A DNA stretch of 64,000 bases from Tetraselmis striata. Taxonomy: Eukaryota; Chlorophyta; Chlorodendrophyceae; Chlorodendrales; Chlorodendraceae. The stretch spans positions 186,001 to 250,000 of the forward strand of contig VCJN01001754.1 in the NCBI GenBank assembly GCA_006384855.1, read 5' to 3'. This document shows, piece after piece, positions 1-46,245 of this stretch. The notes under the pieces are model-generated. The model saw nothing but the letters and a program-made list of their open reading frames with translations. It searched no databases and was not told the origin of the DNA. A program made the position numbers and the translations under genes. The first letter of the stretch is position 1. Every line of letters begins with the position of its first letter.

Positions 1-680
1 CAGCGGCACCCTGGACGGGGGCAGCACAGGGCAGCCGCTGAGCTCACCCCGAATGTGTGGGTAGCTAGAGTGGAGGGCACCAGAGGGTGGCGAAACTGGG
101 ATTCGTTCATTCTTTTTCCCGATCCCTTGTTTGGCCCGTTTCCTTGTTTTGGCGCTCTGGGCGAGGCCCACCTGCGCGTCAATATGGCAGCTGAACAGCA
201 ACCTGGAGAGCTGCCTGCACAGCGCAGCGCGGCCAGAATAAGGGTCGTGAGAGGGAGCATCGTGGCGGCTTGCTGGTGCCGCGGGCGACGCATCGCCGCG
301 GTCGGCGGCACCTTATCTCGCACTTGGCGGTCGCGGCGCCCAGCTGCAGCTCCACGAAGCGCTCCGCGGAGGGGCCTGGTCGGCACGACACGGCAGGACG
401 GCACGTGCTCACGAAACAGCGGAACAGGCAGGGGTAGAGGCGAAGCGCAGCACAGGCCGCGGGATGTTAAAGCCCTCAGCCTCTAACCTGCAGGGGCCAG
501 CACACCGGAGAGGCTGACGCCGGTGGAGGCCAGCAGCTCGGCCATTACGGCGCGTTGCTGCCGGCCGTCGTCCGCGCTCAACGGCTGCGGCGGCCAGTGG
601 CGCAGCGGCGGGGCGTCGCCGCAGCGGTTGCTCCAGCGCAGGAGCGCGCGGTACAGCGCGACCGACAGTCGGGACGCCAT
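1..680 (-). CDS. LYR-motif-like protein, 5' part of a spliced gene
   Basis: Not recognised with certainty. From an ATG at 680 the protein opens MASRLSVALYRALLRWSN, which carries the L-Y-R...LL-R pattern of the Complex1_LYR family, small mitochondrial or plastid assembly proteins. The first exon (680-488) ends CTGCAG before a GTTAGA donor. Exon 2 (375-312) and exon 3 (214-172) follow with matching phases (1 then 2) and CAG acceptors, giving a continuous frame of 100 codons. A 17-base exon at 64-48 may come next; it is uncertain. The gene then leaves the window, so the C-terminus is missing. The upstream bases 681-1600 show no other gene and would hold its promoter. The LYR assignment is inferred from one motif; the exon chain itself is better supported. 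Confidence 0.45.
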
Positions 681-1640
681 CCGCTTTGCAGTGTCCACCT
701 GCTGTACAAGGCAGTCCCCTCGGGGGGACAACGGCTGAGGCGCACACAGGGTGGATGATTGAGTTGCTAGCAGCAGAAGCGACACAGAAAGTCGATTTAC
801 GAACGTAAACCAGATGTATGGGAGTACTGCGTTCGCTAGTGGTACCAGGTACCGACCATTTGCAGGGCGGGTGGACTCATCGGACCCATAGTCGCTAATG
901 CAGCAGCTCTGGTCATTTATTTCACTTTGTTGGTAGCGCGTACTAGGTAAGGATTACGAGTAGCGACTACCACTACCGGGTACCCGGTACTGTACTGGTA
1001 GGTGGCAGAAACTTTAAATAGTGGCGGTGGTTGCCGTGGCCGCGCAGTTTTGCCACCCTTCTAGCGTTTTCCAATCATGTTTTGCTACTACTAAATGATA
1101 TGCGATTATGTTTACTACTAGTAGTTGGGGTTTCCTTTTCCCTTCTCTGCTTATTAGCATGCTCGGCACGGCACCAGTACGGCGCTACTCTGTCCATGTG
1201 GAGTGCCCGTACCGCCCGAGGATAATCGTGATGACCCAGCAGCCCCTCGGCAATTTCATCGTCTGGCGGAAGTTGCCGTACGCCCTACGGCACCACCGAC
1301 CCGCGCACGCTTCCCAACGCAACCATCCCGGTAGCGCTGCTCCCGCATGCTTCGTCGTGCTGTGTTAAAATAACCATGGGGCTTGTCCCTCTCCATCTTC
1401 CTTTGTCGTGGCGCACCCACCATGGGATCGCACCCACTACGGGGTCGCGCCCCGACAAAGCTCGTGTCTTCGTGACATAATGCGAGGTCTTTGGTATACA
1501 AGTCATTCAGAAGTGATGCCATGCACCCATGTCGAGGACATGTCTTACTTGCTGGACGGGAAGCGGTCGACGATCGACCAGAGGGCACCGTGCGCCGGCC
1601 CCTCGAGCCGACAATCGGTGCCCCACACGGACAACCGTTC
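681..1640. other. intergenic, no gene seen
   Basis: No open frame here reads like protein. Short runs such as the repeated GGTACC-type words near 840 and 970 recur near 11,910 but I see no defined element. It may hold the promoter of the minus-strand LYR-like gene. Confidence 0.4.
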
Positions 1641-1802
1641 GGGGGGGGGGGGGGGGGGGGGGGGCGCTCTTCACGCCTCGCGACACAAGAGCCCCCCATG
1701 CCGCCGGCCTTCGGCACGCCGACGAAGAAGACTGCCATTTCCGGGCAGGGACGACCCATGCGCCGGTGGGACTGCGGCTTCAACGCGCTACTCCGACTGA
1801 TT

Positions 1803-1833
<31 letters not shown>

Positions 1834-1970
1834 CTCTTCACGCCTCGCAACACAAGAGCCCCCCACGCCACCGGCCTTCGGCACGCCGACGAAGAGGATT
1901 GCCATTTCCGGGCAGGGACGACCCATGCGCCGGTGGGACTGCGGCTTCAACGCGCTACTCCGCGCCACAA
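1641..1970 (+). repeat. tandem duplication led by poly-G
   Basis: A block made of a pure G run (1641-1664, then 1804-1833) followed by about 135 bases of unique sequence occurs twice in direct order. The two unique parts differ at only a few positions. Each copy starts CGCTCTTCACGCC or a near match and contains TTTCCGGGCAGGGACGACCC. The G run therefore lies at the duplication joint, which fits slippage or unequal exchange at the homopolymer. Long open frames here are low-complexity artefacts. Confidence 0.8.
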
Positions 1971-2039
1971 CGGTGGGGCTGCCCCTCGCAACCCCACGCA
2001 CGCAACTTGTCGGCGCCTACCGACCACCGATGTATGCCG

Positions 2040-2830
2040 CTTCCGGGCCCGTACGCACACAGCTGGCGCAATTGTGCCGCTACTACGCGCAGCTGGCCGG
2101 CCTCGTCAAGCCGCCGTTGCACCGTGTTCTCGGGTCGCTTCCGCGGTACGTACGGACCTGGTTGGCGACATCATCGGGCCGCTACTACACATTGTGCTCC
2201 GGCCGCTTCCGCGGCAAGAGGTGTTTTTGGACATCATCGGGCCACCGCTGCACTATGTGCCCCTAGTCGCTTCCGCGGTCCGGGCAAGCAGTTGGTCGGC
2301 GCCATCGGGCCGCCATTGCGCCACGTGTCCATGGTCGCTTCCGCTGTCCGGGCACGCAATCAGTCGGCGCCCTCAGGCTGCTAATGCTCCGATGTGCCCC
2401 TAGTCGCTTCCGCGGTCCGGGCACGTAGTTGGTCGGCGACAACGGGCCGCCGCTGCACCCCATACCTCGGATGCATTCGCAGCCCGGGAACGCAGTTGGT
2501 CGGCGCCATATCGGGCCGTCGTTGCACCCCGTACCGCCCCGGTCGCTTTCGCGGCCCGGTCACGCAGTTGGTCTCTGCCATCAGGCCGCCGTTGCACCCC
2601 GTGCCCCCGATTGCTCTCGCAGCCCGAGCACGCAGCTGGTCGGTGCCGCCATGCCGCCTGGACACCATGTGCCCCTGTCGCTTCCGCGGCATGGGCACGC
2701 AGCTGGTTCATAGGCACCATCGGGCCGCCGCGCACGTTGTGCCCGGTTGCTTTCGCAGCTCGGCCACGCAGCTGCTCGGCGCCATCGGGCCGCCACTGAA
2801 CGTGGCCGGTTGCTTTCGCAGCCCGGGCAC
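2040..2830 (+). repeat. degenerate ~66-bp minisatellite
   Basis: About eleven diverged copies of a unit of roughly 66 bases, recognisable by CGCTTCCGCGGTCCGGGCAC and by CATCGGGCCGCC in each copy (copies near 2139, 2200, 2267, 2335, 2402, 2468, 2540, 2610, 2675, 2750 and 2808). The array ends where the capsid-like coding fragment begins. Open frames across it are artefacts of GC-rich repeat sequence. Confidence 0.75.
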
Positions 2831-3284
2831 TGTGGACCATCTACCGCTTCACCACCAACATGACCAACGCCACGGCCAATGCCGTGAGCAACCGTCCCGA
2901 CCCCGAGTTTGCGGAGTGGCAGTTCGAGGTGGGCGGCGAGCTGATGCCCCCCTCCCGGTGAGGAGCACCGTGGAGACCTTCTCCGAGTGCCTCAAGGCGC
3001 AGCACGGCCTGGGCGTGGTGGACGACTTGGTGAACATCACCAAGACGCAGTACGAGCTGACGACCGCCGCCGCCACCGACGCCGCGTCTGCGCTGGCCCA
3101 GGACCTCGAGTACCTGACCAGCGGCGCCGGCAAGGCCAAGAGCGGCGTGGACGTGCGCGGCGTGGACGTCTTCTTCGAGCAGCGCTGGGCGTCGGCGACC
3201 AGCCATGCCTTCCGCCTGGACACCTTCGCCATGTTCGACGGCACTCTGAGCATCAAGAATGGTCAGTGCTCGGTGACAAAGTAG
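2831..3284 (+). pseudogene. major-capsid-like protein, C-terminal fragment
   Basis: Intronless fragment read in two frames joined near 2955. It starts at the minisatellite edge with a segment containing EWQFEVGGELMPP, then continues STVETFSECLKAQHGLG, FFEQRWASATSHAFRLD and ends TFAMFDGTLSIKNGQCSVTK and stop. The pattern (W-F-x-V-x-G-x-L-x-P early, a charged middle, then an LDxFAxFD strand and I-x-NG near the end) resembles the C-terminal half of polinton-like virus capsid proteins. This is recognition by pattern, not by alignment. The N-terminal half is absent, replaced by the 66-bp repeat, and a frameshift breaks the rest. The lipase gene stops 8 bases away on the other strand, a compact, virus-like arrangement. 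Confidence 0.45.
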
Positions 3285-3895
3285 GCGATCCCTACTTGGC
3301 CGCGTACAGCTTGCGCATTGCCGTGCGCGCGCGGGGGGGCATGAACCAGTCCAGGAGGTGGGCGTCCGCCGCGATGGTCGCCTTGCCGGTCTTGTCGCCC
3401 TTGTAGGGGCAGTTGACCAGCGCGATGCAGCCGGCCTTCGAGAGGGCCTTGGCCCCTCCGGACACGATGTCGCCGTCGACTCGAAAGACGACCGGCGTGT
3501 TGTCCGGAGTGCATAGAGGATCCCCCACCAGGCCGGGGTTGAACGCCACCGCCATCGACCTGAGCGGGGCCGCCGCCCATATGGCCAGCGAGCCCCCCAT
3601 GCTGTGACCGGTGGTTTCAAGCTCGTAGTCCGGGAACTCCTTGGCGAACATCATGCACGCCGTCCGGACCAGCTGGAACCTTGAGTCCTCGTCGAGCCTC
3701 ATCGCGAGGACGGCGACGTCGGCGAGGCGGTCGAGGCCGTCGGCGGGGTTGGTGCCGCGTCAGGCGAAGATGGCGCGCTTCTCCTCATGGTGCACGAGGC
3801 ACGCGTAGAAGCCGTCGGTCTTGTCGCAGGCTGCCACGTCCCAGCCCTTGAGGTACTTGCGCGCCCATGTCTTCACTGTGAGATTCAGATGTGAC

Positions 3896-4449
3896 GTAAA
3901 TGTGCCCTACTGGTGACGAACGACGACATACGGGGACGATACGGGACGGACGAGGGACGTGGATTTCATACCCAGTAGCGACGACTATCGCGCGCGACCT
4001 GTAAAGTACTATATGAATTTCTCGTTTCCATAATTTCATCAAATTGATATGCGCACGCGGGCTCGCGTGTCGCCCGCCGACGCGGAGTACCCGGGCTAAG
4101 TACAGGCGGCTGCAAGTACTCGCTGCACATCGCTGCACATCGCCGCGGTGTGCCGCGATGTGCGCGCGGCACGACGGGCGGAGGTGTGGGCGGATGTAGG
4201 TGGTACGGTAGGTGGTAGGCGGTAGGTGGTGTTCGTAGGTGCGCGTTTTAATGCAGCCGCCCTAACTGCTGATGATTGTGTAACGCCCCAGCACGCGCAT
4301 GAAGTACGGGGTCGCCTCACGGTCACCGCCGCTCACCGTTGAATCAAGCGCGGACAGCCGCGCACTCGCATCTGTGTTGCCTGCCGGTGGTGGGTTACAT
4401 CCACCCCAACTCTCAACCCCCCCCCCGCCCCCCGCGCGCGGCAGCAGGC
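3896..4449. other. left subterminal region of the CACTA element
   Basis: Non-coding. It holds short direct repeats such as GCTGCACATCGC (twice near 4120-4142) and GGTAGGTGG-type words near 4195-4240, like the subterminal repeats to which CACTA transposases bind. Binding is an inference from the family. Confidence 0.35.
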
Positions 4450-7104
4450 ATGCCGGCAAAGGGATGGATAGCGAGTGTGTCGAAGGATGGCGTGTACACA
4501 TGCAAGCACTGCCACGGCATCGTGACGGGTAGTAGTGAAAGGACGGCGCGAGAGCGGCACTTCCGGAAATACCCGAACTGTAGCCACTCGTTGAAGCGTG
4601 CGGCTAAGTTGCGCCGCAAGGCCGCCTTATCACAAGCAGCACCAGCAGGGGCGGCAGCAGCAGCAGCAGCAACAGCAGCAACAAGCGCGGCAGCAGGAGT
4701 AGCTGCAGCCGTCGGAAACGGCCCGCGGGCGCCGGTCTCGGACGACGGCGGCTCGAAGGTGGACGATGTGATGGGCGTGGGGGAGGACCCCGTTGGCGAA
4801 GACGGTATGGACATCGACGCGCCTGCGTGGCCGCCGGCGGGCGTCGAACCCGCGATGAGGGCGTGATATGGAAAGGCGATCCCGGCGACTTCTACATGAA
4901 GGTCATCGCCAAGAAGTTCCGGGGAGTATGGCACTACGGCGTGATAACCGGCGTCGTTACCGAGTGGGTGTTGGAGGACTACGGCGGGGCGACCCAGTGG
5001 CGCGCTGTTTTCGAGGACGGTGACATTGTGGACCTTCTGCGTTCAGAGGTGAGTGGGCCCGGCCTGCGTGCTGGTGGCACCACTCAACTGCGGTTGTATG
5101 GAATCACACGCACCCGCCCGGTCGGCGTGGCAGGTTGTGGAGGCTATGGCGGCTGCCCAGGAGCACCCCCCTGTGGATGCGGACGGGGATGCTCGCTTGG
5201 TAACCGTCCATCAAGGCGATGACTTGTCCAGTGAATCACGCACCTTGCCCGGCGTGCGTTCAACACAACCCGGCTGGCGGAGGCCAAGCAGAACACTGGC
5301 TGCCATGGCCTGTGCCATGTGCATGTGGTCCTGGGCTATGTCAGCATGATCAACCTCTTCCCCCTCGCGCCGTTCCACCTGTTTTTTTTTGGCTTGGGAA
5401 GGGACTTATGGAGGAAATTTGTCACCGTGCAGGGCCACATTGGATTCCGAGCTATGAAGCAGGAAGACCGGCGCCAGGCTTTAGTCCCGATACCCAGCAA
5501 CTTTGAACGCGGGTTGCGCCCTTCGTTTGCAGTGTCCAAGAATCGAAAGGTAACCCCCCCCCACCCCCCCCGGGCGTGGGCGTGGGCGTGGGCGTGGGCG
5601 TGACGGCATTCCCCTCCATGACTGCAGGGTCAGGCAAGGTGACGGTGCAGTCCGGCTGGGTCATGGAGGACTGCTTGCACCACATGGAAACGTTTTCCAT
5701 TCTTAACGCCGGTCCGCTGCTCGAGGAGGCCCGGGTGAAGGCGATCATGACCGAGAAGGAGCTTCGCGTCCCTAGGCGGTGCTTGGGCACATGTACAAGC
5801 GCATGCAAGGAGCTGCGTGGTTCGTCACGCGGTGGGGGTTGCAGAATGTGGTGACGGAGGAGGACGGCCCCGAGCGCAAGGCGCAGGTGGACGCGCTCAC
5901 TAGGGAGGGGAGGACTCGATACCCCGCGCGGCGCCAAGGCGCGGCGGCCGGGGCAGCGCGGCGCCAAGGCGCGGCGGCCGGGGCAGCGCGGCGCCAAGGC
6001 GCGGCGGCCGGGGCAGCGCGGCGCCAAGGCGCGGCGGCCGGGGCAGCGCGGCGCCAAGGCGCGGCGGCCGGGGCAGCGCGGCGCCAAGACAGCGGCGGCC
6101 GGGGCAGCGCGGCGCCAAGACAGCGGCGGCCGGGGCAGCGCGGCGCCAAGACAGCGGCGGCCGGGGCAGCGCGGCGCCAAGACAGCGGCGGCCGGGGCAG
6201 CGCGGCGCCAAGACAGCGGCGGCCGGGGCAGCGCGGCGCCAAGACAGCGGCGGCCGGGGCAGCGCGGCGCCAAGGCGCGGCGGCCGGGGCAGCGCGGCGC
6301 CAAGGCGCGGCGGCCGGGGCAGCGCGGCGCCAAGGCGCGGCGGCCGGGGCAGCGCGGCGCCAAGGCGCGGCGGCCGGGGCAGCGCGGCGCCAAGGCGCGG
6401 CGGCCGGGGCAGCGCGGCGCCAAGGCGCGGCGGCCGGGGCAGCGCGGCGCCAAGGCGCGGCGGCCGGGGCAGCGCGGCGCCAAGGCGCGGCGGCCGGGGC
6501 AGCGCGGCGCCAAGGCGCGGCGGCCGGGGCAGCGCGGCGCCAAGGCGCGGCGGCCGGGGCAGCGCGGCGCCAAGGCGCGGCGGCCGGGGCAGCGCGGCGC
6601 CAAGGCGCGGCGGCCGGGGCAGCGCGGCGCCAAGGCGCGGCGGCCGGGGCAGCGCGGCGCCAAGGCGCGGCGGCCGGGGCAGCGCGGCGCCAAGGCGCGG
6701 CGGCCGGGGCAGCGCGGCGCCAAGACAGCGGCGGCCGGGGCAGCGCGGCGCCAAGACAGCGGCGGCCGGGGCAGCGCGGCGCCAAGACAGCGGCGGCCGG
6801 GGCAGCGCGGCGCCAAGACAGCGGCGGCCGGGGCAGCGCGGCGCCAAGACAGCGGCGGCCGGGGCAGCGCGGCGCCAAGACAGCGGCGGCCGGGGCAGCG
6901 CGGCGCCAAGACAGCGGCGGCCGGGGCAGCGCGGCGCCAAGACAGCGCATACAGCGGAATCGGCGGAAAGGGATGCATTACAAGCTGTGGACGGCAGCCG
7001 CTGAAAACTATGCGGTCATGCCGCAACAACCCCAGCACTGGCTTCTGGATACCTCTGATCTGGCTGACGGCGGCGGGCTGCGGGATGCAGGGCCGCATGA
7101 CTGA
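4450..7104 (+). CDS. transposon-encoded protein with BED-like finger
   Basis: From ATG 4450 the protein has a zinc-finger-like segment, VYTCKHCHGI...RHFRKYPNC (C-x2-C...H-x5-C), then an Ala-rich acidic linker. A one-base shift near 4855 leads into an SH3/Tudor-like stretch (WKGDPGDFYMKVIAKKFRG...WRAVFEDGD). A good GTGAGT donor follows at about 5050 and an acceptor at about 5133. The next coding block includes LGRDLWRKFVTVQGHIGFR and ends at a C-rich intron (about 5550-5627). The following exon reads VTVQSGWVMEDCLHHMETFS. A second shift near 5775 leads to MLGHMYKRMQGAAWF and then into the minisatellite, which stays open to the stop at 7104. The role as transposase is inferred only from position; no DDE triad was seen. 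Confidence 0.5.
5931..6955 (+). repeat. 30/31-bp minisatellite in the transposon ORF
   Basis: About 34 near-identical units. Type A is 30 bases, with CCAAGGCGCGG; type B is 31 bases, with CCAAGACAGCGG. They run in blocks: 5 A (5931-6080), 6 B (6081-6266), 15 A (6267-6716), then 8 B to about 6950, the last one partial. Type A keeps the reading frame; each B shifts it by one. All long frames on both strands stay open because the unit lacks stops, so the large minus-strand ORFs here are artefacts. Two related units lie at 49,823-49,880. Confidence 0.92.
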
Positions 7105-7701
7105 GGTGGCGGTGCTGGTGAGCCCGCAGAGTCTGCATGCGGCGGAGGCGGCGCAGCCGCATAGGCACTAGACAATGCTCTGAAGCGAGCCCCAATTGTC
7201 TGCCCAGCGCCTGCCCCAATGTAACGCACCAGCTTGGCAGCAATTGGCAGCTCTTTTGCCCCCCCCCTCCACCCCACAGACACACTACCAATACCAGTTT
7301 CTCATCCCGGCGGGCAGTTGATGCGTATACCCAGGCTTGTGCGTACGCAGTGCGGGGGGGGGGGGGGGGGGGGAATCACTATAGCTAAGCTAGTGATGTG
7401 AGATATGAGTGCAGCAACAGATATTGTGCAAGATATAATACGATGGCATGCAAGCGGGTCCCCGCTCTTCCACAATCATTGGCCCTGCTCCCTCTTGCCC
7501 CGCCCCCGGTGCCCTTTAGCTGCTCTCAGCATCCCGAGTGGGATGGGCGGGGCAGCGGTTGCTACCGAGTGAGGCGTAGCATCGTTTGCAGTGGCAACGC
7601 AGCCTTTCCGGTGTGACGCCGCCTGGATGTAACCCAGCAGTACGCGCAAAGTGCAAGTGTTACACGTCCGTGTGCCCCACCCAATGACATTGCGCCCGAC
7701 C
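7105..7701. other. transposon interior, no gene seen
   Basis: Between the plus-strand gene and the convergent Cys-rich ORF. It contains a pure G run (7354-7373) and no convincing coding sequence. Confidence 0.4.
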
Positions 7702-8403
7702 TCACTGACGGCATGTCTCGCTCTCCTTCAGCTCCTGGGCCGTCCGCCGCCTCACCCTGCGCACCCTACCAGCCGCGCGTGCCTTCTCGGAAGCCTCACA
7801 CACGGCGGCGCGAGTCGCGTCGTGGAACGCGTCCCTGACATGGCGGAACTCCGCCCTCTTCGTGGCCGTGGTCGGGCAGGGGACTGCCCGCTGATGGGTC
7901 GCCATGCATGGGTACTTGGGGCCGCACAAAGCCGGGGTGCCGTCGCAGCAACACTCCCAGTCCGTCCGTTGGCCGCAGTCCACGCATGACGGGCGTCCGG
8001 CCAGGACACGCACATGATAGTGCATGTGGCCGCCTCCCGCCACTGCTCGTAGTGCTCCGGTCAACATGGCGACGAGCAAGTCGGCATGTCCCGCAGGTGG
8101 CTGCGGGGCGGGTGGCGCGAGCGCAGCCTCGCTCGCCTCGACAACCCCCTCAGCCCGATCAGTCGCCTCGACCACGGCCTCCTCTGCCTCCTGACGCGGC
8201 GCACCAGGCGCATCATCGTCGCCTGGCAGGGCGTCCCCCCCCGCAACGGCGCCGTCGGCGGTGGCCGACGCCGTCGTGGCGGGGTGTTGTGAGGAGGTGG
8301 CCCTAGACATAGGTGGGGCCGGCACCGCCATGTGTTGCTCCACATGCGGTGCGGTTCCTGACGCGACAGCTCCGTCGCACCAGTACCGGCGCCGGCACCC
8401 CAC
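7702..8403 (-). CDS. Cys-rich zinc-binding-like transposon ORF
   Basis: A 233-residue open frame. An acidic Ala/Glu-rich first half is followed by a dense cysteine block, SCVDCGQRTDWECCCDG then ALCGPKYPCMATH, with CxxC, CCC, C and C-x5-H spacing that recalls the Cys-rich C-termini of piggyBac-like transposases and other treble-clef fingers. A basic tail with an RRVRRVRRRTAQ-like run follows. It lies within the CACTA element, convergent with the main gene. Family and function are not recognised; metal binding is inferred from cysteine spacing only. Confidence 0.35.
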   Translation of the reverse strand: MGCRRRYWCDGAVASGTAPHVEQHMAVPAPPMSRATSSQHPATTASATADGAVAGGDALPGDDDAPGAPRQEAEEAVVEATDRAEGVVEASEAALAPPAPQPPAGHADLLVAMLTGALRAVAGGGHMHYHVRVLAGRPSCVDCGQRTDWECCCDGTPALCGPKYPCMATHQRAVPCPTTATKRAEFRHVRDAFHDATRAAVCEASEKARAAGRVRRVRRRTAQELKESETCRQ

Positions 8404-35429: not shown

Positions 35430-36230
35430 GCCCTTCCTCCGCCTCCGCCCCCGGCTGGGTGTGGGGGCGGGGATCGTGCACGGGTGGCGCCTTGGTAGCC
35501 TTCGCCCCGCCCGTGTTGCTACTGCCGCGGAGGAGCAGTGTGAACTGGACACCGGCGTCTTACGTCGTTGCTGGTCCGGTCAAGTCCCCGTTCGTTGTTC
35601 TTTGAGCACCCTCTCCCTTCCTGTCCTGTCGGCGCCTCCACATCACATTCGGCCTAGTGCCGCTATTGGAGTGGCCCGGGATGTTGTGCTGGGAAGGGAG
35701 TTCTACGTTCGGCGGAAGGGGACGCGACCGAGCTGGCGGCGGTCTGGCGCTGGGCGGAACAACGCGCGCTGGACACCGGCGTCTTACGTCGTTGTTGGCC
35801 CGGTCGGCTCTCCATTCCCTACTCGTGGAGCACTTTCTGCCTTTCTGTCATGTTGGCGCCTCCACATCACATTCGGCTCAGCGCCGCTATTGGAGTGGCC
35901 CGGGATGTTGTGCTGGGGAAGGCGTTCTACGTTTGGCGGAAAAGGACGCGACCGATCTGGCGGCGGATTTGGCGTTGGGTGGCCTGCGTCTGTTGCACGC
36001 CCGTGGCGCCCCGTTCTGGGTTGGACCCCCCACTTCCGCTCCTTGCTGCGAGACCTCTACTTCGAAGCTCCTTTTCTGTCGGCGCCTTCACATCACATTC
36101 GGCCTAGTGCCGCTATTGGAGTGGCCCGGGATTGCGTGCTGGGGAGAGCGTCTCTACTGCGTGGAGCGGCGGTTGGCTGGTGCCGATGCCATGTCGGTGG
36201 CTGTCCTGGCGGTTCCCGCCTCTGGTGGCC
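35430..36230 (+). repeat. three to four tandem ~225-bp units
   Basis: The phrase GCGCCTCCACATCACATTCG and GGAGTGGCCCGGGAT recurs near 35,630, 35,857 and 36,080, with a partial unit before. Long frames across it are repeat artefacts. The array is followed by TTTGCAGCTGGCTCATGTAATC, the tail type of the non-LTR fragments, so it could be 5' promoter units or the body of a retroposon. Confidence 0.75.
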
Positions 36231-36420: not shown

Positions 36421-37195
36421 ATTTATGGTTAATTGTGGACGTTTTCTATTGCCTGCTATTCGGGTAGTGGTTTCTTGATCGCCTTTTACAGCTAGCTCAT
36501 GTAACTATTGTTGGACCCAGTGTACCCCGGTACCCTGAATCCGCATTTTCTCTCTGTGAAATCCGCATTTTCTAGTGAAGTGCTGGCTGCCGTACATGTG
36601 CCTAAGATGCACGACACCCACATGCTACCAGAGTACGCACGGCACTTAGACTTCTTTGCCAGATTGTCTTCTTTGATGGAGCGGTGTCTGCCCTAACCGA
36701 CACCTAGCCGGCTGGTATAAATTGTCAGCCTCGGCTCCTGTAAATTCAGTCAACTGCATTTCCCAGAAAGTCCCGATTCACCTACTCGCTCAAGTGACAG
36801 TGCCACTCAGCCATCACTACGGCGACAGCGACCACCTTTCGTCCATCGCCCACGGCTAACGGCAACCCTTTACCTTCCCGGTTTGCATCTTGCTTGCTGG
36901 CACTCGACGTGATTCGACGCGTGCACGCCGACTCTCGCCGACTCTCCCCGTAGTGACAGTGCCACTCAGCCATCACTTCGACAATCTCCTTCCGACAGGT
37001 TTTATGGGCCCTCTCCTTTAGTTCGACGCCTTGCCCCGTGCTCGACGCCTGCCACATGAGGCTTCAACCTACGTGTATCTCGACCCTCGACAGCTTTCGA
37101 CGGTCGACGGCGACGTGCGACGAGCTTTTCTTCCCACCCGCCCACCCCTACGGTTATACATCTTCCAACACAAGTGCGCCATCCTTCCACAATGC

Positions 37196-38862
37196 ATGTC
37201 TACCAGCAACACCACCGGCATTATGAACACCCGCCCCCTAGCCAATCTGGCTCGGAGGAGTGCGATCAAGACGGACCCTGGCAGCGCTCCACCACCACTT
37301 GACTTCCGTGATGATGCCAGTTCTGACAACGCCTTCAGCATAAACGGTGCACCAGACAGTGACGCAAGTGACATGCAGCAGATCAAGCCGGCTGCAGTGA
37401 AGCCGACACTCGACATCATTCAAGAACGTACCCGTCTGGGACGACACTACCGTCCATCTCTACGCGGGACAACGCTCAAGCCATGAAGATCTCTCTCGGC
37501 AGCGCCGGCTACTTGGACACCACCAAGGGCAAAGGCACCCGTCAGGAACAAATGATTCTCATGGCAGCCCTGCGCCACGCAACAGCCTATTATTATCCCA
37601 TGGCACTGGCCATCGTCAACATCATCAACATGGACCTGAGGAAGTGTGGATATGCAGCCTGGAAGGCCCTTCTTACTGAGCTCGTGGAGGAGCGCAAGCG
37701 CTTGGAGAAGGAGATCACATCAGGCTAGCTCCCGAATAAGCCAGTTCGGGTGTATGTTCGGCGCTACAAGAACCTCCGGAATCTGTTGAACAAGGCACAT
37801 GGCCAGTGGACCTTCGAGTACGTGGCCACCAACTACCTCATCCCGGGACTTCGCCCAGACTACGATCATATCGTCGACACCACTATCTCGGCGGCCACTG
37901 TCAACGAGAACCTGGCAACCATCATCCGCGCCGGACGGAACATGGAGGCGCGCAAGCGTGAGCGTAAGCAGTGCGTCCTCGCGTGCCCGCCAAACCTCAA
38001 TTCCTACAACCCTATGGACCCGCAGCACGCCACCAAGCCCAACGTTGTATGCAAAAGGTGTGACCGTCCAGGCCATACCTAGCAGCAGTGTGTGGCCAGG
38101 CGCCATGCCAACGGCATGCGTATCATGGGTGACACCACGTCAAGCGGCACCATGAACGGCCCTCACTATGACCGCCATCCGCGCGCGCCTGCGGAGCGTC
38201 ACATCCACAACAGCTATGGCCACAACCCGCACGACAACTACAACCATCACGCGCCGCGAGGTCAGCATTTCTACAACAACAACCGCACCAATCCGGACAG
38301 GCTCCAGCGGCAGCAACGTTGGGTCAACTGAGGCGGCAACAACGGCATGCAGCGCCATCCGCAGCCGGTCAGCTTCGTCTCCCCTGCCGGACATTAGAAC
38401 CAGGGACATCAGCAGGTCAACAACAACTCCGACCAGCGGCCGACAGGATACCGGGAGGCCTATCCGTTCATGGGTGTGTCCCCGACGGCACAGCACCACA
38501 GCAGCATGCCCATCATGCTCACGTGCACCATCGCAGCCCCAGGAGGGGCGGCACCGGAGCGCAAGAGTAGGGGGAGGGCGAGGACGACGCGGAGGATAAC
38601 TTACATGCCCACTGGCAACGCCCTCAACCCGTCCCCACCCCAGCCCAACCCCTATGCCTCGCCTCACCCACATTCCCGGCCTCGGCGGCGTTGGCGTCCC
38701 ACGTCCTTCATGCGGAGCAGGGCGTCTTGCGTGGCGACCCGCCACCGACGCTACCGCTCCTTACCGCTGCTCCGATCCTCCAGCTGCCAACCTCTCTGGT
38801 CATCGACCATCTCTTTTCACCGTGACATGGCCCATCAGCATCTGAGGCAGAGGCTCTGTTAG
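37196..38862 (+). pseudogene. gag: copia Gag with CCHC knuckle
   Basis: Starts at ATG 37196, shifts frame twice near 37,430-37,480, then runs from 37483. It contains YLDTTKGKGTRQEQMILMAA, KCGYAAWKALLTELVEERKR, NKAHGQWTFEYVATNYLIPG and the knuckle CKRCDRPGH-x4-C near 38,050-38,092, in which one of the four spacer codons is TAG. A His/Asn/Arg-rich, probably RNA-binding, tail follows. In-frame TAGs at about 37,726, 38,080 and 38,395, plus a TGA near 38,329. Confidence 0.8.
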
Positions 38863-39795
38863 AATGCGGCTTCGCAATCCACAAGATCACCGACGCTGAC
38901 CCATCAACCGAGGCTCGCACTACATATGTGGACACATCGCCTACATGTCATCAGCAACAAATATCCGGACCGTCTGCCTCCATCAGCATTTCAGGACTGT
39001 CGTGCCAGGACCCCCATGGACGTCAACGACATCACCATCACGGACCTGGAGCACCTGCGCCCGGTCACCCGCGTCGTGTCAGGCCCGCCGTGTCAACCAT
39101 GGTCACGCGCGGGCTCACGCCTTGGCTGGCAGGACCATCGTTCTCGGGCCTTTGCTTCCGTCATCGGTTTCATCCGTTTCTACCTGACTACACAGCCCAC
39201 AACAGTGCGCTATATTGTGGAGAATGTTCCAGGCGCGCTGGACTTCCCTGAAATACTCTCCTCGCTTGGAACCGGCAACATCATGCGCGCGACCGCTTGC
39301 GGCTCAGCAGCTCACCGCGACACCCTCATGTGGACCAATATCGCTCCACAACCAGACATCGAGAACTACGTCAACAACATCAACGCCATCGAACTCACCG
39401 ACCCCGGCCCCCGCGCGTGGGACCTCTGCCTCTCCGAGTTCCCCCACTTTACTCCAGTGGTGACAACCGACTATTTTCCGAAGTTCGTCGCCCGCCCCGG
39501 CTCATGCGCCTTTCGCATGCAGACCAACATTCAGCCGGGCGCTGGCATTGTCTACGAATATGATGGCCCCTAGTCATGGGCAACAAACAACGGCAGATGG
39601 CGCGAACCCCCTGCAGCTCTACGCGCTCGCGCCATGGGCTTCACCTTGGATGATCTGCCCACATTTCACCTTTTCAAGGCGGCATTCCGCAACCTCCTCG
39701 GCGGAGTCATCGATCTCAACGTCATGCGCAACTACATCAAGGCTGTCCCGGGCGCCGCCACTGCCCCACCAGTCATCACGGTCTGCCACACATAG
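38680..39795 (+). pseudogene. C5-cytosine DNA methyltransferase inside the copia element
   Basis: Methyltransferase motifs appear in order. A weakened motif I region (LVIDHLFSP, stop, then ALLECGFAIHKITDADP) is in one frame up to 38,925. In the next frame come MDVNDITITDLEHLRPVT, motif IV VVSGPPCQPWSRAG with the catalytic Cys, motif VI YIVENVPGALDF, a motif VIII-like AAHRDTLMW, and after a TAG the end region WREPPAALRARAMGF and GGVIDLNVMRNYI in place of motifs IX-X. It would transfer a methyl group from S-adenosylmethionine to cytosine C5. It sits between gag and protease in the gag frame, so it was probably part of the polyprotein. Inactive now (TGA near 38,826, shift at 38,925, TAGs at 39,571 and 39,793). 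Confidence 0.82.
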
Positions 39796-42110
39796 CACGG
39801 CGTCTCCATCAAAAGCGACGGGGAGGCATGGGTGCTCATCGACTCAGGCGCATCCTTTCACGTCAACGCCCACCGCGTACCGACCACATCTACTACATGG
39901 ATATATCTCCTGCAGCGGAGCAAATTTTGATGGGCGGTTTCGGGCAACCGGCAATCGGCGTCGGCACCACACTGGCACCAACACTGGACACCACCGGCAG
40001 GCCACATACCATTGGCGCGAGACTATTACCATACTCCCAACATCACCTCCAGTGTCGGCCTCACCAACATCAGCCGCCTCCTCAGCACCCATCAACTTAG
40101 CAAGCATGGCTACTCCGTCTACTTCAGTTGCCCCCTCAACAGCATGATCACCCCGGATGGCGCAGGCATCCACCTTCAGCCCTACCCCGGCACCACAGGC
40201 CTATACGGCATCCAGCTCCTTCCCATCCGCGATCCCTCTCATGGGGTCATGGCGCCGCCATCTCCGACGGTTTCCTACTCCCTGTGGCATCTTCGACTTG
40301 GTCATCGTTGCGCACGCCACATGGCACTCACCCAACAGCATGCCATCGGCAACCCGAAACACGGCCCCGTACTAGAGGCCATCTGCCTAGCATGCATCCA
40401 GGCTAAGTCCCACCAACAATCGGTCAACCGGCAGCCCTCCCCACGCGCGACAGCGCCATACGTGCTCGTGGTCACTGACGACTGGAAGGGACCTTGCCCG
40501 TCGGTAGCTGGGGCGCAGCATGTCTTCGGCGTAGTGGATTCCTACACTGGCGTGAGACCAAGGACGAGGCCGTCCGAGCCATCCATCAACTTCATGCGGC
40601 AGTGCTCGGCATGGGTCACGCCATCCAACGCATACTGGCCGATCGCAGCGCGGTTTACACCGGCTCTCCGTTTCGCCAAGCATGCGCCGACCTCAACATC
40701 GCGATGGAGTTTACCGCGTCTCACTCTCATCATCAGGCAGACGTGGCGGAGCGCTCTTTCCGCACCATCGGTGAGTGTGCCCAAGCCATGCTCCTCCACG
40801 CCGGCCTCGACCGCGCCTTTTGGGACTGGGCGTATCTTCACGCCGTCTATCTTTGCAACCGCCAGTGGAGCTCGTCCGTCAACGCCATACCCTACACACT
40901 GATGACCGGCCGCAAGCCGGACCTCACCGACCATGAGGTCCGGCTGTCTTCGGCTGCGTGGCCTGGGTCAACATCCATGTGACTATGAGGGCAGCCAGGG
41001 GCAAAATGACACCTAAATCCTGGCCGGGCATCTATGTTGGCCACCATGAGGACTCCGCTGGCTACCGCATCTACAACCCAGCAACCAGGCGCGAAACTGT
41101 GACACGCGATGTCATCTTTTACGAGGTAACACAACCCTTCTCCAGCACTCCGACTCTCTCTATGCCAGTCTTCCAATTCCCCGACAATGACCACCTGCTA
41201 GATGAGCCGCAACCCTTGGACCAGCAGGAGGGGCCCCAAGCATCGCACCCATGCCACCATCAGCCGCGCTTGCCTGGGCTCAGGAGGGCCCCCCACCTCC
41301 GCATCACGACGAGCAATATCTTCCGTGTCATCAGGAGGGGGACGCCACAGCACTACTAGCTCCTCACTTCAGCGGATCGGCGCAACTGCTTTCCCCTCAT
41401 ATCGACCTCAGCTACTACCACCCACGCTAGTGGCATCCGCCATCGCGGAGGTTGTGCGCCCCTACTCAACGCAGATGGCAGCCCTCGCCCTACAAGCACC
41501 CACTGCCCGCGTCTCCAAGGCGCCGCGCAACTACAAGGAGGCTATCTCCAGCAATCACCCCAAAGACCGGGAACAGTCCATGGACCGTGAGATCGACTCT
41601 ATCACCAAGATGGAGACTTTTGTCTGGATCAGCGTCCCTGAGCTTCGACGCGACAGCCCATCAGCGATCATCATACAGACGGCGTGGGCCTTCGCGGAGA
41701 AACACGACAAGGATGGCAAGCTCATCACGCGCAAGGCCAGAGTGGTCGTCCGCGGCGATCAACTCACCGCCGGCGAGAACTATGATGACACCAATACCTA
41801 TGCCCAGGCGTCAGCTTCATCGCCTTGCGCACCACTTTTGCTCTCGCAGTTCAACTCGACTTGGAGCTATACCAGTTCGACGTCACATGTGCCTTCATGA
41901 ACGCTAACCTCGATGAAGCTGTCTACGTCTACCCCCCCCCCCCCCCCCCGGCTACAGCCGCAAGGACCACGCTTGGAAACTCGTTTAGGCACTCTATGGC
42001 CTGCCGCAGGCACCCACGGCAAGGTTTCTGCGCTTTTCTTCCTTTCTCCGCGACTTCGGCTTCATCAGCTCCGAGTGCGATCCCGGCGTATGGACGCTGC
42101 CCTGAGTTTC
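39796..42110 (+). pseudogene. pol: copia protease-integrase-RT remnant
   Basis: Protease AWVLIDSGASFHVN directly follows the methyltransferase region. Then a GAG-preintegrase segment (YSLWHLRLGHRCARHMALTQ with a CxxC further on), integrase core pieces in three frames (VLVVTDDWKGPC; RILADRSAVYTGSPF; HHQADVAERSFRTIGE), and an RT N-terminal part (MDREIDSITKMETFVWISVP; ARVVVRGDQLTAGENYDDTN; YQFDVTCAFMNANLDEAVYV). A pure run of 18 C (41,932-41,949) replaces the bases after VYVYPP. The last readable RT phrase is FGFISSECDPGVWTLP. Confidence 0.8.
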
Positions 42111-43484: not shown

Positions 43485-46245
43485 CTTTCACAAATGCGAA
43501 CTACAAACAGAACTAACAGCAACTATAAAAGGTTGCCAGCAAAAGAGAGATTTAAGCATGAAACCGAGGTCGAGCATGAGGCCAGGGAGCCAAGAATAAA
43601 TGAGGAGCCAACGGAACCACGAAGTCGCTTAGCTGCTAGGAACCAAAGGGACCCCCGCCCCGGGGTAGACTATCAGCTGCGGCGAGGACGCTTGCAGCCA
43701 ATGACCCGGGTCATAGCAACACATGCCGACGAGCGACGCGACGCAGGCGCAGGAGCACCATCACGTGCCGCACGCGCGGCCGCGACCCCGCCAAGAACGT
43801 TGTCTGCATGTGCCATGTTGATGAGCAAGGAGAACCGGCGGCGCCACGCGGACAAGAGCTGGCCGATTTTTTGGCCAGTGTGTGTGTGGCTAGCGTTCGC
43901 GAGCTCCACCAACACAGCCTCAGCGTGCGGGGCCAGCGAGCCAAAATCGGGAACGGCGAAAGGAACAAAGCGAAGCACGCCGGCGGCGTTTCGAACACCC
44001 TCGTCATACTTCTGGATTTTGTGGCGCTCTGCAGCCCGCAAAGCAGTCGTTGGATCCGAGCTTGACACGCCGAGGATAGGGGCAATGGTGGTATCGACAG
44101 CAACCGTGTTCCCGCGGATACCACCATACCCAAAAAGCCCAACATCGGCCGGCCGGCCGTTGCTGCCCTTCGGAAGAGAAACAAGCACCGAAGGGTCCGT
44201 GAGGATCTGGACACCCACGCCTAGCGCGGACTTCACGTCGTGGCAAATGTCGGAAAGGCCATGTGCCGCCCACTCGTGTGCGGCGTGATTGGAGTCGCCC
44301 CCAGAGCAACGTGCCACGTGATCAGCGTACGCGACCGCCCAAGTTGAAGGAGTGAAATCTACGCCAGCATCATCAAAACGGGACAGCATACCTTGTACCG
44401 AGAAGGAGCAAAAAGCACAAGGGCATGGCTCGCCAAGACAAAGGGAACAGGAGCCGCCGGAAGGCCAAATGGGCGGCAAGCGGCAACACGGAACATGGAA
44501 TCGTAGTACTCAGGGGAACGCTCACGGACTTCACCAAGGCGACCCTCACTTGGAGGATCAGTCACCAGGAACGCTGTCGCAGCGCGTAAGAGGCGGCCTC
44601 GGAAGCGGTTGCTGTCAGGGCCGCTTGTAGGCATACGCGCAGCAAGCTTTGCGAAACGGACCGTGTGAATGCGGTGGCTCTGGATTTCCTGTACTTTTCG
44701 CATGGAGTGCAAGGGGAAGTCCGAGTAATGCGGGATAGCTTGAAGGTCGGCCGCCGAGCGCATTGCAGACGCCGGCTCAGCCCCGGCGGCCGAGCAGCCG
44801 GCACGGGCAACGTGGGAGCGCTTGGAGGGGAGCAACTTTAGGGCAGAGGCCAACGGCCCCGCTAGATCCTCGAGCACCGCATCTCCACACTCGTCAACGA
44901 CACGGGTATTAGCGGCGCGAAGCTCGACAGCCCACATCGGCGCCGACGCGTTGGCGCCGGCATCCGGCTCCAACGTTGGGGTGGCCAAAGCCTGGTGGAT
45001 CGAGGACGCCCCAACAAGGTAGAGGCTATGAGGGCTGGATACGCCGGACGGGTTGGAAAAGAACGCCCCGGCGTCGCTCAGGGTGGTATGTTGAGCACGG
45101 AGGAAACTCACAGCCTGGCCAACCACGAGGGCGGCAGCGCCGATGTGGGAGGCATCTGCTATAACCACATTATCGCCGATGCCGAGGCCCCCAAATTGGA
45201 CCGGGGGGGACAACTGCGTGAGCATGGAGGGCGTATCCAAGAGGTCGGGGCTAACACCCCATATGCCGGCAAGCGTTGAAAATGCGGCGGAGCCTGCATC
45301 ATCGAGGAAGGACGTAATAGTGTCGCCATACCCCTCGGATCGACCCAAGCCCCGAGGCGTGGAGCGGAGATGGTGGCCAAAACGACGGCCGCAAACTTGC
45401 AGCAAACGAGTAGCTGTGTGGGAGTGGAAGTGGTCGGCCAAACCGATAAGCCGGGAGCCGAATTGGTGAAATCTTTCGACCGATTTGTCCAACAGTTCCC
45501 GGGGGAAAGTGGCCGAGCCCACATGGGCACCAAGCACCTTGATTCCGGACGAGGAGGCTGCAACACCATGCAACAAATGCTCAAAAGGAAGGGCGCCAAA
45601 CGGGGACGAAGAGCCAAGCTGACAATTCGCCTGTCGTTTGCGAATGGTGACGCTTAACCCAACGGCGGCAAAAGCGGACGGGGCCACCCACGTAGCAAGC
45701 GCAAGTCCGTCACCAGTGCCGACCAGGTTGACGTCGTCTGAGAAAGCCGCCAACACTGAGTGACTGGGGGCAGCCGCGCCGATGCGAGCATACACTCGGG
45801 CAGCGACGGCGGTGAACAGGATGAGGCCGAGGATGCAACCCTGGCGGGCCCCTCGACGGCTTGGAATCCGGAGAGAGGAACAGGGTTGGGAGCCGGCGAA
45901 GACGTACAAATTGGACTCTTGACCATAAAGCATGATCGCCGAACGCAATAGAGGTTGCCAAACAGGGTCCTCTAGCAGTGTGCGGAACATTTCGGAGCGG
46001 TAGAAGGAATTGAACGCGTTTTCGGAGTCAAGCTGCACCAAGACGAGGGATGGATCCGAGTCTAGAAGAGATCGCACAAGGAATTGAACTAATTCCACGC
46101 CAACCTTAACGCCAAAAACCGAACTGGCCGCGGGCGGCAAGCCATTGGGCGATGGGCTCGCCATGAGCGCGCAAGAGGACGCGCATAGCGTACCGGACAA
46201 ACACGCTGCCGATGCCAATGGGCCAAACGGACACCTTCATGTCTC
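43485..46245 (-). mobile_element. non-LTR retrotransposon with RT and nuclease-like C-terminus
   Basis: Minus strand. The first RT block (VFVRYAMRVLLRAHGEPIAQ) is in one frame at about 46,230-46,140, then a shift to a 600-residue frame: VQLDSENAFNSFYRSEMF, RRGARQGCILGLILFTA and VLAAFSDDVNLVGTGDG (FSDD in place of YADD). A second shift near 44,370 gives the C-terminal domain: FTPSTWAVAYADHVARCSGG, NGRPADVGLFG ... GNTVAVDTTIAP, fitting the (R)PD...D-x-T core of restriction-like endonucleases of site-selecting non-LTR elements. The 3' UTR ends in ...CCCTGATGTAA at about 43,485. It is truncated at 5' and has two frame breaks. Confidence 0.8.

Follow-up and report, generated by a model that had tools for sequence, protein, structure and literature searches.

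Cytosine methylation is a main weapon of hosts against transposons, and a transposon that itself carries a methylating enzyme is a paradox that has been in print since 2018. Here we describe such a case in Tetraselmis striata, a chlorophyte of the class Chlorodendrophyceae. The stretch analysed (64,000 nucleotides, positions 186,001 to 250,000 of contig VCJN01001754.1, assembly GCA_006384855.1; hereafter the window) holds a decayed Ty1/copia retrotransposon with a C5-cytosine methyltransferase (MTase) domain between Gag and protease, and sister copies elsewhere in the genome carry the same domain in uninterrupted form.

DNA methyltransferases (DNMTs) within long interspersed nuclear elements (LINEs) and within DIRS and Gypsy elements have been published since 2018 (PMC5890265), and the precedents named by an earlier note on this DNA, made from the sequence alone, are real. 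KnitGypsy-Dnmt3 of Klebsormidium nitens likewise belongs to the green lineage and is a long terminal repeat (LTR) element; its Pol polyprotein includes a Dnmt3-type MTase under purifying selection. Compared by description, KnitGypsy-Dnmt3 is a Ty3/Gypsy element with a DIRS-like repeat arrangement, whereas the Tetraselmis element is Ty1/copia with the MTase between the CCHC zinc knuckle and the protease (PMC5890265). SymbioDIRS-Dnmt3 of Symbiodinium also has a Dnmt3-type MTase in its polyprotein but differs in being a DIRS element with a tyrosine recombinase. In yeast, two copies of SymbioDIRS-Dnmt3 methylated CG de novo, while the LINE and Gypsy MTases gave no methylation, a result that the authors call inconclusive (PMC5890265). 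The Copia elements of Symbiodinium are described in that paper without a DNMT domain. SymbioLINE-Dnmt, from the same host, is a non-LTR element with a C5-MTase of an orphan DNMT lineage, encoded mostly in an open reading frame upstream of that for the reverse transcriptase (RT) (PMC5890265).

A 2025 article in Molecular Biology and Evolution mentions some DNMT3 that sit within 'LTR Copia and DIRS' elements (PMC12344493); the work it refers to is the 2018 paper, where Gypsy is reported, its relevant section describes no Copia element, and its main text contains no Tetraselmis. Among the titles and opening lines of abstracts covered by our literature search, with most subscription journals and preprints lying outside it, no DNMT-bearing Tetraselmis element, no Copia-borne DNMT and no LINE combining a C5-MTase with a PCIF1-type domain is described. 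What we present as new is a described set of MTase-bearing Copia elements in a chlorophyte, together with LINEs that have two methyltransferase domains. In common with the published DNMT-bearing retrotransposons, the Tetraselmis Copia elements have an in-frame MTase, many copies and purifying selection, the last of these in one lineage (B1) only.

A methyltransferase domain in five Copia lineages

The MTase domain of the window lies at about 38,739 to 39,760 on the forward strand, its approximate ends being projected from residues 655 to 992 of P0001, the 2,130-amino acid (aa) open frame of sister copy L016. PF00145 matched 38,863 to 39,573 (37.7 bits, above the cut-off of 22; E 2e-9), and a six-frame scan of the genome with the same profile found the same site (E 2.3e-7). 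The series of motifs reported by the earlier note is present as described, with GPPCQPWS (Cys codon at 39,091 to 39,093), ENV (39,220 to 39,228), HRD (39,313 to 39,321) and GVIDLNV (after 39,700) all in one frame, and with a single TAG (39,571 to 39,573) between the last two. The proposal that the MTase shares the gag frame holds for sister copies, as the 2,130-aa frame shows; it is not visible in the window copy itself, where blastx places the beginning of the MTase in a different frame from the remainder.

We surveyed the genome (224 Mb, 2,903 contigs) for further copies, scoring the best 104 of 601 candidates for a 399-aa piece of lineage A that holds the MTase domain, 121 of 498 for the B1 MTase domain, 117 of 543 for the LINE discussed below and 137 of 993 for RT. 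At least 107 matches to the lineage-A piece and at least 124 to the B1 domain were obtained, where one broken copy can yield several matches. Five Copia lineages carry the MTase at the same place. Among the copies read, lineage A (about 71-100% identity) comprises L016-L018, L023, L024, L029-L032 and the window copy, whose MTase matches the lineage-A piece at 88%; lineage B1 (mostly 90-100% to L009) comprises L009-L015 and L025-L028; and B2 (51%; L020, L021), B3 (46-48%; L037, L038) and C (about 32-37%; L034, L039) are more distant. A further group, A2 (L033, P0013), matches mostly at 64-71% and over query residues 22-286 only; many such A2-like matches are among those listed, some of them in frames close to 1,200 aa long. 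Among proteins, lineage A is matched best by a gene model, jgi/Tetstr1/431152, at 99% over residues 690-1020 of P0001. An open frame of at least 2,000 aa spans the MTase match, with no stop inside the match, at 25 loci or more (by identity, 5 A, 6 B1, 2 B2, 10 B3 and 2 C).

These results bear directly on the alternative that a host or viral MTase gene fragment sits in one element copy or that the motifs match by chance. Taken alone, the window copy is indeed a broken single copy, and the earlier note had named, as a finding that would refute it, other copies of the element that lack the region and so show a one-off host gene fragment; this test came out in favour of the note. The genome-wide matches, the same position in each lineage read, the single Copia MTase clade (support 98/97 and 100/99, see below) and a Copia protein from the database, P0058, that also carries the domain make this extremely improbable, and the copy survey rules it out for practical purposes.

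The domain order (gag, protease, integrase, RT, RNase H) is that of a Ty1/copia element. In P0001, P0002 and P0004, Pfam places DNA_methylase (PF00145, 34.5-45.8 bits, all above the cut-off) ahead of gag_pre-integrase, rve, SH3 and RVT_2, with rve below the cut-off in P0001 and P0002 and gag_pre-integrase below it in P0004. The CCHC knuckle is a Pfam match in P0002, a match below the cut-off in P0004 and a pattern match in P0001. RVT_2 was found in these three proteins and in L037. The protease (DSGA/DTGA) and RNase H of the sister elements were identified by eye from their motifs.

Support for the suggestion that the dead window copy may have active sisters comes from lineage-A copies that are uninterrupted and have near-identical LTRs (L016 99.8%, L017 99.2%, L018 100%) that end in TG..CA and are flanked by 5-bp target-site duplications (TSDs; GTTTC, ATGTC and CTAAG, respectively). 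LTR pairs of B1 and B2 are 98.7-100% identical; no TSD was found for these copies by a scan that required TG..CA ends, which B LTRs may not have. Because their LTRs are nearly identical, these elements moved recently. The lineage-A LTRs are about 481-485 bp long (TGTTGG...CTCCGACA) and are followed directly by GGTTTTTGGGCCC, a candidate tRNA primer-binding site. For L021 and L037, the LTR pair runs off the end of the stretch examined, and the stretches examined for L034 and L035 contain no LTR pair. An 819-bp repeat pair at L014, considered as an LTR pair, was set aside as a neighbouring copy.

Motif IV reads PPCQ in A, B1 and B2, PPCA in B3, PCCE in C and PDCH in P0058, and motif VI reads ENV in the Copia lineages and ESV in P0058, so that the motif IV Cys and the motif VI Glu are kept in the window and in each autonomous Copia lineage read (A, B1-B3, C, P0058). 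The catalytic Cys is present at 26 of the 27 distinct places read, the exception being A2 (L033), although most of these places were chosen by a PF00145 match, which biases the count towards a kept motif. The profile itself scores B3 at 18.7, below the cut-off, and does not match L033. A Gly-rich motif I is kept in the LINE and Gypsy types described below and partly in B and C.

By sequence comparison we consider the retrotransposon-borne MTase (retro-MTase) domain DNMT3-like, without calling it a DNMT3. A profile of six retro-MTases has DNMT3A as its best match among solved structures (E 1.2e-16). With the catalytic domain of DNMT3A and DNMT3B, the retro-MTases have in common the motif VIII region (AHR) and the end motif (LLG); they differ in a motif I that is altered in the Copia lineages, in having neither of the ADD and PWWP domains that belong to DNMT3A, and in being part of Gag-Pol.

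Relatives and descent of the domain

Similar domains occur in two other kinds of retrotransposon. At L019 (positions 3-7895, forward strand; contig C2687 of the searched genome, G000) and at L036, a LINE-like element encodes, in a single frame, RVT_1, the PCIF1-type methyltransferase domain PCIF1_WW (PF12237), a C5-MTase and RNase H; the LINE of L019 is present at no fewer than four loci, one of them in two pieces. It resembles SymbioLINE-Dnmt as a non-LTR element with a C5-MTase, but its MTase is DNMT3-like, lies downstream of RT and shares one frame with the PCIF1-type domain. All seven LINE-type proteins taken from ENA (P0050-P0056) have RVT_1 and a C5-MTase; six (P0051-P0056) also have PF12237, and two have a PHD finger. 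Where PCIF1 has its NPPF motif, the PCIF1-type domain reads NPEY. Three Gypsy-type proteins (P0014, P0015, P0057) carry a C5-MTase with motif IV as FECQ, PECQ or WPCQ, and P0014 has a PHD finger according to its precomputed Pfam list.

Other C5-MTases in the genome are of a different kind. Near-identical copies of another type, in 325-aa frames (GPPCVGLSNANF), occur several times (L001-L006, L008; G000 C1230), adjoin a 377-aa frame in L002, L004 and L005, and include three related copies on one contig; they are perhaps carried by a DNA virus-like element. A 630-aa C5-MTase frame at L041 (G000 C2009) looks bacterial by eye and possibly stands on a contaminating contig.

One Copia lineage stands apart. 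In Copia D (L035, 1,561 aa) neither Pfam nor the retro-MTase profile found an MTase, and its RT is 48-50% identical to B as against 37-40% to A or C. The unrooted RT tree, ((A,C),(D,(P0058,B3,(B1,B2)))), joins D to the B side with support from 96/96 to 100/99, and the integrase tree repeats this topology, though weakly supported (73/79). The MTase tree, ((A,C),(P0058,(B3,(B2,B1)))), places the Copia domains in one clade that branches as in the RT tree; its support is 98/97 with DNMT3A added and 100/99 with P0058 and more LINEs but fewer outgroups. Tree rows were 12 of 34 database matches (5 retro-type, 7 outgroup); the last MTase tree kept three of the nine earlier outgroup rows, and used eight or all of nine further matches that had a long enough domain, that of P0056 being partial. 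Since the MTase and RT trees are in agreement within their resolution, one capture within Copia suffices. Whether D lost the MTase or never had it depends on the position of the root, and a root of the RT tree on the branch leading to D would make even a loss unnecessary.

If A/C and B had each captured the domain separately, in place of one capture kept or lost, this would account for an MTase-less D whose RT is closer to that of B than to those of A and C. The first MTase tree, in which the Copia clade had a support of 87/63, leaves room for this, as does the grouping of A/C with LINE-type MTases, which was not quite rejected (approximately unbiased test, p-AU 0.065). We nevertheless hold separate captures to be distinctly unlikely, given the single Copia clade in both later trees, the rejection of B with LINE MTases (p-AU 0.026), the match between MTase and RT branching and the identical place of insertion.

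Beyond Copia, the retro-MTases together with DNMT3A are separated from the bacterial and viral sequences at 100/99, in a tree with one DNMT3 row, long branches and no DNMT1, DNMT5 or DNMT6 rows. The retro-MTases without DNMT3A group at 80/80 in the DNMT3A-added tree and are not together in the tree with P0058; a grouping of Gypsy MTases with DNMT3A is not rejected (p-AU 0.27).

Selection, derivatives and the proposed role

Selection was measured on ten B1 loci (45 pairs), five of which reach RT and four of which are RT-deleted derivatives. The ratio of nonsynonymous to synonymous substitution rates (dN/dS) over all pairs comes to 0.227 for the MTase, 0.178 for gag, 0.295 for the protease-integrase region and 0.647 for the spacer that separates CCHC from the MTase; over the 21 pairs with dS above 0.05, the MTase gives 0.200, the spacer 0.714 and the protease-integrase region 0.279. 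The B1 MTase domain is under purifying selection. The RT-deleted derivatives (L013, L025, L026, L028) have lost RT in frame and kept gag, MTase, protease and integrase (by Pfam on L026 only), with LTRs 99.4-100% identical.

We propose that the DNMT3-like MTase, placed in Copia Gag-Pol between CCHC and protease, probably methylates the complementary DNA (cDNA) of the element itself. The domain would be made and packaged with Gag-Pol, would meet new cDNA in the particle or soon after nuclear entry, and would, at integration or earlier, add methyl groups to some of the cytosines in it. Methylation of its own copies might also alter silencing by the host, as the earlier note suggested. New copies might then arrive already marked, which could lower their cost to the host or shield their DNA, and the element could spread through such fresh copies while defective elements are served in trans.

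A number of observations count against this proposal. Motif I of lineage A reads SPCHGPS where others are Gly-rich, with one Gly in common, and its binding of S-adenosylmethionine is therefore uncertain. Lineage A alone shows weak likeness to solved C5-MTases, with HaeIII (1.3e-4) ahead of a DNMT2-type enzyme (2e-3) and DNMT3B (4e-3). The A2 examples (L033 and P0013) have lost both the Cys (PLQ) and ENV (QNC). L033 (G000 C835:92500-99500), with pol largely deleted, nonetheless has LTRs that are 99.6% identical, along with a 5-bp TSD; it moved recently without the Cys, and MTase activity in cis was therefore not needed for it to move. MTase-less Copia D is itself common, with at least 18 RT matches at 40-41% in frames of exactly 1,561 aa (some share contigs, and L035 alone was read). 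The B1 pairs behind the selection estimate are not independent, as most of their depth lies in a single split that sets the RT-deleted derivatives against a second group; dS between L009 and L025, L026 or L028 is 0.18-0.19 in the MTase as against 0.06-0.08 in gag, spacer and protease-integrase region, an excess of over twofold that hints at exchange of the MTase segment between lineages (a mosaic). Seven lineage-A loci, L016 and L017 among them, are too alike for a dN/dS ratio. Finally, in a sample of one to two elements per lineage and one D copy, some stretches including flanks, no CpG depletion is peculiar to the MTase carriers: observed/expected values of 0.75-0.98 (A 0.89, A2 0.90, B1 0.81-0.88, B2 0.75, B3 0.87, C 0.98) bracket that of MTase-less D (0.80), with the LINE at 0.81 and the window at 0.99.

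Several of these points would fit a domain that is retained for something other than catalysis, for instance to bind nucleic acid or to shape the particle of an enlarged Gag, and that is decayed at least in A and A2. Lineage A is without the usual motif I, C and B3 have PCCE and PPCA instead of PPCQ, one of the Cys- and ENV-less A2 examples still moved recently, and there is no CpG footprint. We regard this role as unlikely, because binding alone is not expected to keep a catalytic Cys across such distant lineages, whereas every autonomous Copia lineage read has both this Cys and the Glu of motif VI, P0058 (PDC, ESV) among them, and the B1 MTase has a dN/dS of 0.20-0.23. The enzyme might instead work in trans, with host chromatin or competing DNA (that of other transposons or of DNA viruses) as its target. 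The many copies could supply enzyme to the whole nucleus, host-wide effects have been raised for Symbiodinium (PMC5890265), and one derivative without the Cys still moved; the place of the MTase within Gag-Pol would favour action bound to the particle, and we think it improbable that own cDNA is not the target.

The proposal of self-methylation could be examined by a natural comparison within one genome, which holds Copia elements with the MTase (A, B1-B3, C), D without it, the RT-deleted derivatives and the Cys-less A2. Methylation and spread compared across these lineages would show whether the MTase marks its own copies. A broader reading, which we offer as doubtful, is that the domains form a long-inherited retrotransposon branch of DNMT3-like MTases, a working part of Copia Gag-Pol with relatives in PCIF1-paired LINEs and in Gypsy elements, exchanged between retrotransposon orders instead of freshly captured from hosts, and methylating cDNA in the life cycle.

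The window copy and its surroundings

The element of the window (36,509 to 42,100) is a decayed, 3'-truncated Ty1/copia element, delimited by the earlier note to within about 10 bases. Both its Copia nature and the MTase between Gag and protease are borne out. Relative to L016, blastn gives 84% over 36,509 to 38,617 and 88% over 38,613 to 42,100, where the DNA match ends inside RT; positions 4358-4541 of L016, between gag and MTase, are missing at about 38,615. The copy is dead, as had been stated: 11 blastx pieces to P0001 use all three frames, and it therefore cannot make the polyprotein.

All features lie on the forward strand. The 5' LTR, of lineage-A type (82% to that of L016 by blastn), occupies 36,509 to 37,001 and is the only one that the copy has, no LTR pair being found within the window. 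It is followed by frame-shifted gag with its CCHC zinc knuckle and spacer (37,001 to 38,624; blastn, and blastx to residues 15-553 of P0001 in frames 1, 3 and 2). Beyond the MTase, which is supported by PF00145, blastx and the letters themselves, come the aspartic protease region (about 39,829 to 40,200; DSGA in the sister copy), within a blastx piece to residues 716-1257 in one frame, and frame-shifted gag_pre-integrase, integrase core and SH3-like domain (about 40,213 to 41,242; blastx to 1145-1489, Pfam on P0001). The truncated RT region (41,421 to 42,110) matches residues 1554-1788 of 2130, its last blastx piece extending to 42,132; the rest of RT, RNase H and the 3' LTR are absent.

Rfam at gathering scores gave no match in the window. 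On the reverse strand, an open frame of 625 aa (44,362 to 46,236) resembles RVT_1 weakly, scoring 23.7 bits where the cut-off is 29.6 (E 4.4e-5), and may represent a non-LTR element. Just upstream of the Copia element, 35,529 to 36,151 contains a repeat array, with a 214-nt unit present twice and an 83-nt unit three times at a spacing of 224-226 nt.

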